64,000 nucleotides of DNA from Cyclobacteriaceae bacterium (GTDB lineage: Bacteria > Bacteroidota > Bacteroidia > Cytophagales > Cyclobacteriaceae), in contig CP075525.1 in the NCBI GenBank assembly GCA_025808415.1, positions 372,001-436,000 on the forward strand. Reading direction: 5' to 3'. Shown here piece after piece: positions 19,812 to 28,235 of the stretch. The position numbers and the translations under genes were made by a program. Positions within the stretch are counted from its first letter, which is position 1, and each line of letters starts with the position of its first letter. The notes under the pieces are model-generated. The model ran no database searches, was not told the origin of the DNA, and saw only the letters and a list, made by a program, of their open reading frames with translations.

Positions 19812-19951
19812 TTAACATTACCATAAGGATTTTTTAAACTGCATAACAGTGAAATAACAAGTGTTAGGCCTGCAATTAATCGTAATATTACGATAATTCT
19901 GGAAATCAGGCATTTACAACCCGTTTAGCCCCTTAACAATTTCGTAACAAT
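19812..19951 (+). promoter_or_regulatory. Array of Pho-box-like half-sites upstream of the TonB receptor
   Basis: Six-base half-sites of the type nTAACA recur at 11-bp steps: 19843 and 19854 (ATAACA twice) and 19933 and 19944 (TTAACA, GTAACA). Weaker xTAA copies at 19812, 19823 and 19834 are also 11 bp apart. Tandem TTAACA-like hexamers at 11-bp spacing are the known PhoB/PhoP box architecture. The ArsR-like palindrome lies between the two pairs. Confidence 0.6.
19879..19894. promoter_or_regulatory. 16-bp palindrome, copy 1 (ArsR-type operator candidate)
   Basis: ATCGTAATATTACGAT is a perfect palindrome, 110 bp before the TonB receptor ATG. The same 16 bases occur at 28220-28235 before the ACR3 gene. 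An exact double occurrence is not expected by chance in 64 kb. Confidence 0.7.
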
Positions 19952-20003
19952 GGCTTGCTTATGGGGTAATAGTGTAGCGCCACCTTTGCAGAAATTTTTA
20001 GTT

Positions 20004-22802
20004 ATGCGCAATCTATACCTGGCTTTCTTTTCCTTTGTTTGTTCAGTAGCCTTTGCCCAAACAGGAACGATAAGCGGAAAAATAACAGACGCTAAAACAG
20101 GCGAAGAAATAATTGGGGCCAACGTGTCCATTCAGGGAACACAAGTAGGTGCACCCACGGATATTGAGGGTAAATTTTCCATTAGTAACGTTAAGCCCGG
20201 AACATATAACCTGGTTATCTCCTTCATTACCTACAAAACCCATGTTATTCCAGATGTTGTCGTAGAGGCAAACAAAATTTCAACTATAAATGTGGCCATG
20301 CAGGAAGAGTCGCAGGAGTTGGAAGAAGTTATTGTAACAGGAACACGTGAAATTAACAGCGACTTTGCATTACTGAAAGCCATCAAGGAAAGCAAGTTGG
20401 TTGTAACGGGTATTTCTGCCGAACAGATTTCAAAATCACAAGATCGCGATGCAGCTCAGGTAATGCGTAGGGTACCGGGTGTTACCATTCAGGAAAACCG
20501 TTTTATCGTTGTTCGTGGTTTGAGTTCACGCTACAGTAGTGTAGTACTTAACGGGGTTACAGCCCCAAGTTCAGAATCGGATAGCCGTGCATTCTCATTT
20601 GATATTTTACCCAGCGGATTGATTGACCAGATTTTAGTTTACAAAACCGGTGGTGCATGGTTGCCTGGTGATTATGCCGGTGCGGTGGTGCAGATCACCA
20701 CTAAAAATGTAGTTAACGATCCGTTTATTAACGGTGCGCTTTCTATTGGTTATAGAAGAAATACAACAGGTACCACTCGTCAAAGCCAAGAACGTTCATC
20801 TACTGAATGGTTGGGATTCGATGGTGGTTCAAGAAGCCTACCCAAAAATGCCCCACCAAATTATGGTGCGTTAGGTTTTAACCCTAATCTTATTGAATTG
20901 GAAAGCAGGAAGTGGCAAAATACCTGGGGCCTTCAAGACATTAATGTTTTACCGGATGTCCGCTTTAATTTGAATTTTGGCCGCGGGTTTAAACTTGGAA
21001 GCATGCGGCTGAGTACAATTAACGGATTAACGTACAGTAACACCAACCAATACAACGATGCTTCTTTCAATCGCTATTTTAATTATGAAGAAGATTTTAC
21101 CAGTGAGAACTTCTTCAATTACATGGATAACCAACTTGTAAATAGTGTTAGGGCAGGCATGTTAAGTAACTGGACCCTTACCTTGAACAGCCGCAATAAA
21201 ATTGAATTCAGAAACCTGTTTAATAACATTGGTACAAACGAAACCATTATTCGTAGCGGTGATAACTTCTTCCGTCAGCAAAACTTCAGGAATTATTCGT
21301 ACCGTTACATTGGAAGAACATCATATCTGGGACAGTTAGAGGGTAAGCATGAGCTAATACCTAATAGGTTAAATATTACCTGGTTGGGAGGTTATACCAC
21401 CATCAACAGGAACGAACCAGACTGGAGGCGTTTGGTTACGGGCAGGTTGCAAGGCTCAGCCGAAGATGTTCCTTACGTGGTGAATGTGAATTCAAGTGTG
21501 AGCGCAGTAAACTCAGCGCGTTTCTTTCAAGATTTAAATGAAACGAGCTTAACCCACAGAGCAGATATAGAGTATTCATTAAATGCCCCATCCGGTAAAG
21601 ATCCTTTCCAAATCAAAATGGGGTATTGGGTTGAACTTAAAGAGAGAAGTTTTCAAACACGTACAATTGCCCACGTGGCGCGCGATGGATTTAATCCGAA
21701 CATAGCTTCATTACCTTTCGACAGGATTTTTGACCCCGTTAACGTAGCCTACAATGGTGGCCACTTTATTGATGAGCGCCAACGTCCGCAAGATTCATAT
21801 ACGGCAGATAACCTGCTTACCGCAGGTTATGTCAGTGCAGACATGCCTTTCTCCGATAAATTCAGGTTAATAACCGGCTTACGTGTAGAATACAATCGTC
21901 AGCAATTAAAATCAGCGCCCGGTGTTGGCCAAACATCAGTTGATAACCCCATTACCAGTTTGCTGCCATTTGTTAATGCGAGTTACAACCTTACTCCGTC
22001 AGCCCTTATTCGTTTAGCCTATAGCAAAACCTTAAATCGTCCCGAATTCCGCGAGTTGGCAGAATTCAGCTACTACGATTTTCAATATGCCATTGATATA
22101 GTTGGAAATCAGAATTTGAAAGTAGCGGATATACACAATGTGGATCTGCGTTGGGAATATTATCCCACCCCTTCAGAGTTTGTTGCTATAGGTGGTTTTG
22201 GAAAGTACTTTAAAAACCCTATTGAAACGGTAATCCGAACCGGGACTGACAACCCTGCCTTGCTTTATACAAATGCTAAAGAAGCTTATTCCGCGGGTTT
22301 GGAGGTTGAGGTTAGAAAGGCTTTGGCATACTCTTCGGCCAGCCAGTTCTTGAATCACTCATTTTTAGTGTTCAATGCTTCGTTGATTTACAACCGTATA
22401 CAAGTGAGTGATTTAGCGGATGTTTTGGAACTTCAGCGCAGGCCGATGCAAGGCCAATCACCTTATATTTTGAATATGGGGTATTATTATGAAGACACTG
22501 ATCGGGGATTGCAAGCTAACCTTCAGTACAATGTTTTTGGAAAACGAATAACGTTTGTTGGAAACACGCAGTTTCCTACCTGGTGGGAGATGCCCCGTCA
22601 CCTGGTTGATTTAAACATTGCCAAAACAATAGGTAAGAACCTGGAGGTAAGGTTTGGTATAAGTGATCTGTTGAATGCTCGTTGGGAGTTGCGTGAAGAC
22701 CCCGATTTGAACAATGATGTTTCGGATACCAACACAAACAAAGTAATTCGTGGAACACGCAATGGCCAACTCTTTACCGTGGGCTTGGGCTTTAAATTTT
22801 GA
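20004..22802 (+). CDS. TonB-dependent outer-membrane receptor
   Basis: 932 residues. Signal peptide (MRNLYLAFFSFVCSVAFAQ), then a CarboxypepD_reg-like domain at about 20-110 (GTISGKITDAKTGEEIIGAN), a plug domain (RDAAQVMRRVPGVTIQENRF, VRGLSSRYSSVVLNG) and a 22-strand barrel ending in the aromatic VGLGFKF. It lacks an adjacent SusD gene, so it is not a typical glycan receptor. Upstream lie Pho-box-like repeats and the palindrome shared with the arsenite exporter, suggesting import of a phosphate-related substrate; the substrate itself is not shown. ATG 20004 is chosen for the signal peptide. A terminator follows. Confidence 0.93.
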   Translation: MRNLYLAFFSFVCSVAFAQTGTISGKITDAKTGEEIIGANVSIQGTQVGAPTDIEGKFSISNVKPGTYNLVISFITYKTHVIPDVVVEANKISTINVAMQEESQELEEVIVTGTREINSDFALLKAIKESKLVVTGISAEQISKSQDRDAAQVMRRVPGVTIQENRFIVVRGLSSRYSSVVLNGVTAPSSESDSRAFSFDILPSGLIDQILVYKTGGAWLPGDYAGAVVQITTKNVVNDPFINGALSIGYRRNTTGTTRQSQERSSTEWLGFDGGSRSLPKNAPPNYGALGFNPNLIELESRKWQNTWGLQDINVLPDVRFNLNFGRGFKLGSMRLSTINGLTYSNTNQYNDASFNRYFNYEEDFTSENFFNYMDNQLVNSVRAGMLSNWTLTLNSRNKIEFRNLFNNIGTNETIIRSGDNFFRQQNFRNYSYRYIGRTSYLGQLEGKHELIPNRLNITWLGGYTTINRNEPDWRRLVTGRLQGSAEDVPYVVNVNSSVSAVNSARFFQDLNETSLTHRADIEYSLNAPSGKDPFQIKMGYWVELKERSFQTRTIAHVARDGFNPNIASLPFDRIFDPVNVAYNGGHFIDERQRPQDSYTADNLLTAGYVSADMPFSDKFRLITGLRVEYNRQQLKSAPGVGQTSVDNPITSLLPFVNASYNLTPSALIRLAYSKTLNRPEFRELAEFSYYDFQYAIDIVGNQNLKVADIHNVDLRWEYYPTPSEFVAIGGFGKYFKNPIETVIRTGTDNPALLYTNAKEAYSAGLEVEVRKALAYSSASQFLNHSFLVFNASLIYNRIQVSDLADVLELQRRPMQGQSPYILNMGYYYEDTDRGLQANLQYNVFGKRITFVGNTQFPTWWEMPRHLVDLNIAKTIGKNLEVRFGISDLLNARWELREDPDLNNDVSDTNTNKVIRGTRNGQLFTVGLGFKF

Positions 22803-28199: not shown

Positions 28200-28219
28200 G
28201 ATTTTGGTGAATTTTATTG

Positions 28220-28235
28220 ATCGTAATATTACGAT
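28220..28235. promoter_or_regulatory. 16-bp palindrome, copy 2 (ArsR-type operator candidate)
   Basis: ATCGTAATATTACGAT, identical to 19879-19894, lies 20 bp upstream of the ACR3 start codon, where a repressor would block transcription. Arsenite exporters are normally controlled by ArsR/SmtB repressors that bind palindromes of this length, so ArsR is the likely ligand; the regulator gene is not in the window. Confidence 0.72.

Follow-up and report, generated by a model that had tools for sequence, protein, structure and literature searches.

Arsenate gains entry to cells by mimicking phosphate, and the ways in which bacteria balance their defence against arsenic with their need for phosphorus are only partly known, mainly from Proteobacteria. 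The present analysis concerns a perfect 16-bp palindrome, ATCGTAATATTACGAT, which lies ahead of an arsenite exporter gene and of a TonB-dependent receptor gene in a 64,000-nt stretch (the window, positions 372001-436000 of contig CP075525.1, forward strand) of the genome of Cyclobacteriaceae bacterium, and which we predict to be an operator for a repressor of the ArsR type.

The closest described system is the arsRMC operon of Arsenicibacter rosenii SM-1 with its repressor ArArsR, which responds to As(III)/MAs(III). By gel shift and DNase I footprinting, this protein is reported to sit on TTTTATCGTAATATTGCGATCACAATC, with a footprint that contains ATCGTAATATTGCGAT. Its conserved cysteines are given as 41, 43, 80, 82, 107 and 108, three of them (41, 80 and 82) being required for As(III) (PMC11868830). 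The system resembles ours in the operator (footprinted in a form with one mismatch), the six cysteine numbers and the arsR-arsM-arsC gene order, and A. rosenii and the Cyclobacteriaceae belong to the same order, Cytophagales. The A. rosenii study is, however, about the ars operon alone, the words 'TonB' and 'phosphate' being absent from its main text (PMC11868830), whereas here the operator sequence is also found at acr3 and at a TonB receptor. A text search of the literature for the motif returned this one paper.

Arsenic and phosphorus have been brought together in two other ways. In Agrobacterium tumefaciens 5A, ArsR1 is likewise reported to act on phosphate-uptake genes (phoB1/pstS1), with arsenite as the inducer and motifs mostly at least 100-150 nt upstream, but this is an alphaproteobacterium in which the Pst/Pho genes lie beside the ars locus and the motifs are different; two TonB receptors mentioned in that account are listed under iron and not under phosphorus (PMC7965956). 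Arsenic islands with pst/phn genes likewise unite arsenic and phosphorus-acquisition genes, but the link is one of neighbourhood around aioBA, and here it is an operator shared across separate loci (PMC3834237). The words 'Bacteroidetes' and 'TonB' are absent from the main text of the arsenic-island paper (PMC3834237). As for the receptor itself, the FI/FII clusters of Flavobacterium johnsoniae and ElpS/Cc0171 of Caulobacter are described as TonB-dependent receptors paired with a lipoprotein, which is a likeness to our locus in the kind of genes (PMC8115612, PMC2996285). The F. johnsoniae paper has no word starting with 'arsen' and reports no arsenic control (PMC8115612).

Two elements are already known: the operator and its type of ArsR in Cytophagales, and ArsR acting on phosphate-uptake genes in Agrobacterium. 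None of the literature matches listed describes a TonB receptor of Bacteroidota under the control of ArsR, which is weak evidence of absence. The initial annotation of this stretch, made from its letters only, knew of no described case in the phylum; this holds, as far as those literature matches go, for the phylum and for this class of transporter, but not for the general idea, which has a precedent in what is reported of ArsR and phosphate genes in Agrobacterium (PMC7965956).

The palindrome and its candidate repressor

The palindrome occurs base for base at 19879..19894 and 28220..28235, as initially annotated, and nothing else in the window matches ATCGTAATATTACGAT within three mismatches (5 of 100 shuffles also gave two matches at such looseness). 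The second copy, a predicted ArsR operator, ends 20 bp ahead of the ATG (28199) of acr3, a gene for an ACR3-family arsenite efflux transporter (27168..28199, reverse strand; TIGR00832, 390.4 bits for a cutoff of 282.8), and this spacing, too, is as had been noted. The first copy, also a predicted operator, is situated in the TonB receptor promoter, about 110 bp ahead of the receptor start, in what had been annotated as a Pho-type region, and has a TTAACA-type array on either side.

Across the whole genome, which consists of a single contig of 4,046,913 bp, the 16-mer is not scattered but is matched exactly at three places, ahead of arsR, of acr3 and of the receptor; its reversed control is found nowhere, and the copies expected number 0.0021 from base composition or 0.0006 under a first-order Markov model of the window. 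When one mismatch is allowed there are four copies (control 0), all of which precede arsR, arsM (arsM-arsC), acr3 or the TonB receptor. At three mismatches the signal is lost (10 for 15 in the control), and hence the term site is used here for copies with 0-1 mismatch unless a mismatch number is stated. The motif is common to arsR, arsM, acr3 and the receptor, and at the receptor it is conserved in other genomes. A different role, that of intrinsic terminator of the preceding MoxR gene, is not supported, since an A+T-rich perfect palindrome that is also present ahead of ars starts can be reasoned to fit an operator better. No known RNA element was matched in Rfam between 19700 and 28500.

The initial annotation had seen no arsR in the window, and all four HTH_5 matches of the genome (E<=0.001) indeed lie outside it. 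It had also raised the question of whether the 16-mer precedes an arsR elsewhere, and the third exact copy is 10 bp before the arsR of this genome. This gene encodes a protein of 108 residues belonging to the ArsR/SmtB winged-helix family (PF01022, 46.2 bits for a cutoff of 22; NF033788, 73 for 55), with cysteines at 41, 43, 80, 82, 107 and 108, which are the six position numbers given for ArArsR (a comparison of numbers, not of aligned proteins). The order of genes at its locus is arsR-arsM-arsC, as in the ArArsR operon, with an ArsC that scores 158, below the TIGR02691 cutoff of 174.3. The footprinted form ATCGTAATATTGCGAT is itself present as the one-mismatch copy between arsR and arsM, where it precedes arsM, and differs from the receptor copy by one base. 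A protein able to bind the palindrome, on which the initial annotation had made its proposal depend, would be at hand in this ArsR, which appears to be of the type reported to be footprinted on ATCGTAATATTGCGAT (PMC11868830). Since binding is known for a protein of the same type on nearly the same sequence, binding by this ArsR at the receptor is supported by analogy. ArsR is its own sole match in the genome at E<=1e-8, and another ArsR-family binder is unlikely: among the three further HTH_5 matches, the strongest, which is the one inspected, has cysteines at 18 and 37 only.

Taken as a whole, the reading that we consider probable is that the palindrome is the operator of the one close ArArsR-type ArsR of this genome, with a regulon comprising arsR, arsM-arsC, acr3 and the receptor-lipoprotein operon, and that trivalent arsenic induces the receptor.

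Conservation of the receptor site among relatives

In a survey of 59 genomes (this one and 58 relatives), copies with at most one mismatch were found in 32 genomes at 58 places, for one place in the control. By the reading of their neighbours, 49 of these places are at ars genes or operons, six are before the same TonB receptor (in this genome and in G015, G007, G016, G012 and G006) and three are elsewhere: at an extracytoplasmic function (ECF) sigma gene (L073), near a CoA-disulfide-reductase-like gene (L072) and within an open reading frame (L084). The ars class includes two sites where an unidentified open reading frame is closer than arsR, which lies 115 and 229 bp off on the other side (L071 and L080), one whose unidentified first gene is followed by ArsC-like and ACR3 genes (L081), one at a gene with just a 27-bit ArsC match (L063), and one between two arsR genes (L082). 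An operator ahead of acr3 is also found in G015, G007 and G012 and, with one mismatch, in G045. Within the genus, an ArsR at least 69% identical is present in 14 of the 17 genomes, all 14 of which have a site somewhere; the remaining three (G004, G010 and G009, the last with a partial relative at 63%) have none.

Two side observations concern the palindrome away from the receptor. At L073 4033 (genome G031), an exact copy is 27 bp ahead of the ECF sigma-factor gene, which is followed by a second such gene and a PAP2-like gene, and this sigma factor is possibly ArsR-controlled. At L265-L268, a second ArsR subtype with CICNDLV is accompanied by sites of the form AACGTAATATTGCGTT or ATCGTAATATTGCGTT, which suggests that operator and repressor subtypes co-vary.

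Relatives of the receptor (E<=1e-150) are present in 56 of the 245 genomes of the family. In the 61 promoter stretches that were compared (48 from the family and 13 from the genus, with G005, whose contig begins 80 bp ahead of the gene, out of the count, and with the stretch of G174, which ends at the gene, uninformative), the receptor site is found in eight. A composite pattern, that is, the palindrome followed after 20-50 bp by the Pho-box-like element described below, is found in 7 of the 245 family genomes and in no control, each time between MoxR and this receptor, and two of these genomes (G199 and G260) are beyond the genus. With such counts, and with 0.002 exact copies expected per genome, a chance palindrome at the receptor is so improbable that, given also the conservation across genomes, we reject it. 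Seven carriers come from the best 80 of at least 492 loci in GTDB, of which 78 have enough upstream sequence: three (L171, L174 and L176) duplicate G199, G016 and G012, and four are new (L173, close to G260; L172, where the upstream gene is not MoxR; L184; L188). This brings the total to 12 genomes, one of which (L188) is ambiguous, and in all 12 the arsR gene has the palindrome upstream with 0-2 mismatches. In G141, the receptor promoter has ATCGTTTTTTTACGAT, with three mismatches and both half-sites kept.

L184 and L188 are the basis for a different explanation, in which the site is a relic or a neighbour effect: it would have served a divergent arsC-like gene that once stood between the MoxR and receptor genes, and would have no role at the receptor itself. 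In both, a divergent arsC-like gene (below the NCBIfam cutoffs) is found exactly there, its start preceded by an exact palindrome at a distance of 0-18 bp in L184, according to which start codon is used, and of 10-14 bp in L188, where this is the only site, there being none on the receptor side. However, L184 retains a second palindrome, with one mismatch, on the receptor side, and in the other ten genomes the approximately 200-300 bp between the receptor and the upstream gene (MoxR in all but L172) leave no space for arsC, while the palindrome is 88-100% identical and its flanks are not. We consider the relic quite improbable.

This difference between palindrome and flanks was assessed over the 45 pairs formed by ten site-bearing receptor promoters (L184 and L188 left out). 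The palindrome is 88-100% identical over these pairs, whereas the identity of the spacer to the box falls to 0.39-0.50 (shuffled, 0.38-0.46) wherever G260, L172 or L173 is a member of the pair, with the exception of G260-L173 at 0.97, and amounts to 0.52-0.72 within the genus (shuffled, 0.45-0.51). Judged from these alignments, the receptor site is conserved beyond species and genus and appears to be kept against decaying flanks. On a receptor tree of 34 rows, it is found in three separated subfamilies, which requires at least six changes; this is a quick tree with no bootstrap, in which L184 and L188 were labelled site-bearing and four outgroup rows are truncated at a set end, with stops as X. 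Receptor-gene exchange may account for part of the scatter, and how often the site arose independently is uncertain.

The receptor promoter and its proposed link to phosphorus

The locus begins with a gene for a MoxR-type AAA ATPase (18796..19803, forward strand, as are all the genes and promoter elements below except where a palindrome or inverted repeat has no strand; PF07726), a syntenic marker that is upstream of the receptor in 54 of the 61 promoter stretches. Beside its stop is a TTAACA-like repeat array (19812..19859), which recurs as a conserved block in the 13 genus spacers extending to MoxR and is possibly a second PhoB array. Downstream of the palindrome come a small operator-like inverted repeat, CTGGAAATCAG (19899..19909), which fits YTGnnAAYCAR, and then the proximal Pho-box-like direct repeat TTAACAATTTCGTAACA with its 11-bp period (19933..19949), aligned in 14 genus receptor promoters; the inverted repeat, which sits between ArsR site and box, is seen by eye in most genus promoters, with or without an ArsR site. 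GGTAATA (19965-19971) follows downstream of the box, and then ACCTTTG (19982..19988), a putative -7 region in which CCTTTG is conserved in the 14 genus promoters, and which we take to be of the TAnnTTTG type of Bacteroidota. The order MoxR-spacer-receptor is kept at 13 genus loci, whose spacers share a TTAACA-type array next to the MoxR stop, a proximal box of the form TTAAYAATTT that is followed by GGTAATA, and a conserved CCTTTG, and the palindrome lies between array and box in six of these 13.

The receptor (20004..22802) has a CarboxypepD_reg-like N-terminal domain (PF13715, PF07715, PF00593), and its start was picked by homology, the mechanical open reading frame beginning at 19950. It is followed, probably in the same operon, by a gene for a strand-rich lipoprotein-like partner of 555 aa (22974..24641), a relative of which is found in 76 of 80 receptor loci (tblastn, E<=1e-4), and by a small lipoprotein-like open reading frame of 207 aa with no family match (24732..25355), possibly a third operon gene. 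The partner has no Pfam or NCBIfam match at E<=0.001; its AlphaFold model (pLDDT 85) is strand-rich and has no PDB match at E<=0.001, the pectate lyase PelI being matched at E=3.4e-3 only. FI/FII/FIII are themselves reported to be weakly pectate-lyase- or polygalacturonase-like (PMC8115612, PMC2996285). A plasmid search gave 21 records with distant relatives of the partner and no helpful annotation among the matches listed.

The receptor and its surroundings differ markedly in conservation. In ten congeners, the receptor at this locus is 39-47% identical to that of the window and the adjoining MoxR 81-99% (window 18796-22802, loci L086-L100); between this genome and G016, MoxR is 98.8% identical and the receptor 45%. 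It looks as if the receptor gene had been swapped in place under a kept promoter, in which case the promoter, and not the receptor, would be the conserved unit there. Arsenic genes also gather at this locus: in four genus genomes, acr3 and the receptor are 5.6-8.5 kb apart, acr3 and arsR relatives are about 4 kb upstream of it in Cesiribacter (L177), and L184 and L188 have the arsC-like insertion.

That the receptor serves phosphorus is what we infer from the Pho-box-like element and from analogy with gene neighbours elsewhere. Each of the 17 genus genomes has the extended box (at most three mismatches; control 0), which in 15 of them is present at this receptor, and the strict box is found in 27 of the 61 receptor promoters. 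A variant of the box, RTAACAATTC, precedes genes for a PF12850 phosphoesterase and a glycosyltransferase in seven genus genomes (families were run for L285, L287 and L288). The lipid-remodelling genes that F. johnsoniae is described as inducing at low phosphate include those for a PF12850 PlcP and for a glycosyltransferase from a different Pfam family, and pairs of TonB receptor and lipoprotein are reported to be induced in the same condition (PMC8115612), as is the lipoprotein ElpS in Caulobacter (PMC2996285). At L285-L291, a hairpin (approximately CCTGGAGGCC-loop-GGTCTCCGGG) that is seemingly conserved by eye and has no Rfam match lies between the Pho-like box and the Metallophos_2 gene. No PstC was found in the genome under study by a search whose control was positive in 14 of 14 genomes; inorganic phosphate is probably imported there by another route. 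Of the eight other two-mismatch matches to the box in this genome, the one with neighbours checked (L115) is ahead of a sub-threshold Porin_O_P relative.

The receptor might instead have nothing to do with phosphorus, ArsR then controlling some other uptake that is useful under arsenic, for example of an organic substrate or a metal chelate. As a class, TonB receptors are diverse, the substrate of this one is named by no Pfam or NCBIfam model, the receptors at the locus are as divergent as stated above and the box scan in this genome is weak (see below); against this stand the conservation of the Pho-box-like element at the locus, the missing PstC and the fact that this type of lipoprotein partner is reported to be induced by low phosphate in both Flavobacterium and Caulobacter (PMC8115612, PMC2996285). 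We find a substrate other than phosphorus doubtful, though worth keeping in mind.

A candidate two-input promoter

At the ars genes, the start codon mostly follows the operator at a distance of 10-30 bp, and ArsR would block transcription directly. At the receptor, the distance from operator to gene is about 110 bp in most carriers; the operator is there upstream of the box, and bound ArsR would most likely keep PhoB from full activation. Trivalent arsenic, by releasing ArsR, would free the receptor promoter, which would then have two inputs, low phosphate and arsenic, and a phosphorus-scavenging receptor would be raised while efflux and methylation switch on, offsetting the competition by arsenate. 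By eye, GAAAC-TTT is found ahead of many arsR sites and the receptor flanks have no core promoter in common with them, which bears on the idea of an embedded arsenic-controlled promoter.

The initial annotation had proposed that intake by the receptor is coupled to arsenic exposure. The coupling as such is supported by a conserved operator shared with arsR; its sign may be more intake or less, of which repressor logic predicts the former, with more receptor under arsenite. The effect could also be opposite or indirect, with ArsR lowering the receptor under arsenic (so that an arsenate-leaky uptake is cut on exposure), activating it or controlling a separate transcript. The site is indeed upstream of the Pho-box-like element, where activators often bind, and there are apparent ArsR activation effects in what is reported from Agrobacterium, but ArsR1 is described there as a repressor, with arsenite inducing the pst/pho genes and most motifs at least 100-150 nt upstream (PMC7965956). 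An effect of this kind seems rather unlikely to us.

Several observations weigh against the induction of a phosphorus receptor by arsenic through ArsR. Concerning the operator, (i) it is about 110 bp out and off the core promoter, and therefore simple occlusion does not apply, (ii) it is absent from 53 of the 61 promoter stretches, (iii) G168, G195, G121, G033 and G217 have the same ArsR operator and no receptor site, and (iv) six genus genomes with ArsR and a syntenic receptor (G002, where the receptor gene is interrupted by a contig end and the only sites adjoin ars genes, G003, G008, G011, G013 and G014) also have none. The site being absent from most promoters, including in genomes with the ArsR operator, the coupling is therefore not obligatory; in G004 and G009, neither a close ArsR nor the receptor site is present. 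Concerning phosphorus, (i) the box scan of this genome at two mismatches gives nine matches for five in the control, (ii) the box was not shown at any known Pho gene of this genome, where its extended form is found only at the receptor, and (iii) cc0171, the Caulobacter receptor gene beside elpS, is reported to be constitutive (PMC2996285).

A broader proposition, the chances of which we see as evenly balanced, is that in the Cyclobacteriaceae and their near kin a repressor of the ArArsR type has been wired into the PhoB-type promoter of TonB-receptor/lipoprotein genes, in three receptor subfamilies, with intracellular trivalent arsenic as a proxy for arsenate competition that, along with phosphate starvation, raises selective scavenging of phosphorus. 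If true, this would be the first ArsR-controlled TonB receptor for phosphorus, and a regulatory solution of Bacteroidota that parallels the pst-containing arsenic islands of Proteobacteria. It would extend the newly described type of ArsR past the ars operon and single out a receptor whose preference for phosphorus over arsenic is open to testing. A two-input promoter of this kind, if conserved, would mean that the conflict between arsenic and phosphorus is solved by some Bacteroidota at the outer membrane, by means of one common operator.

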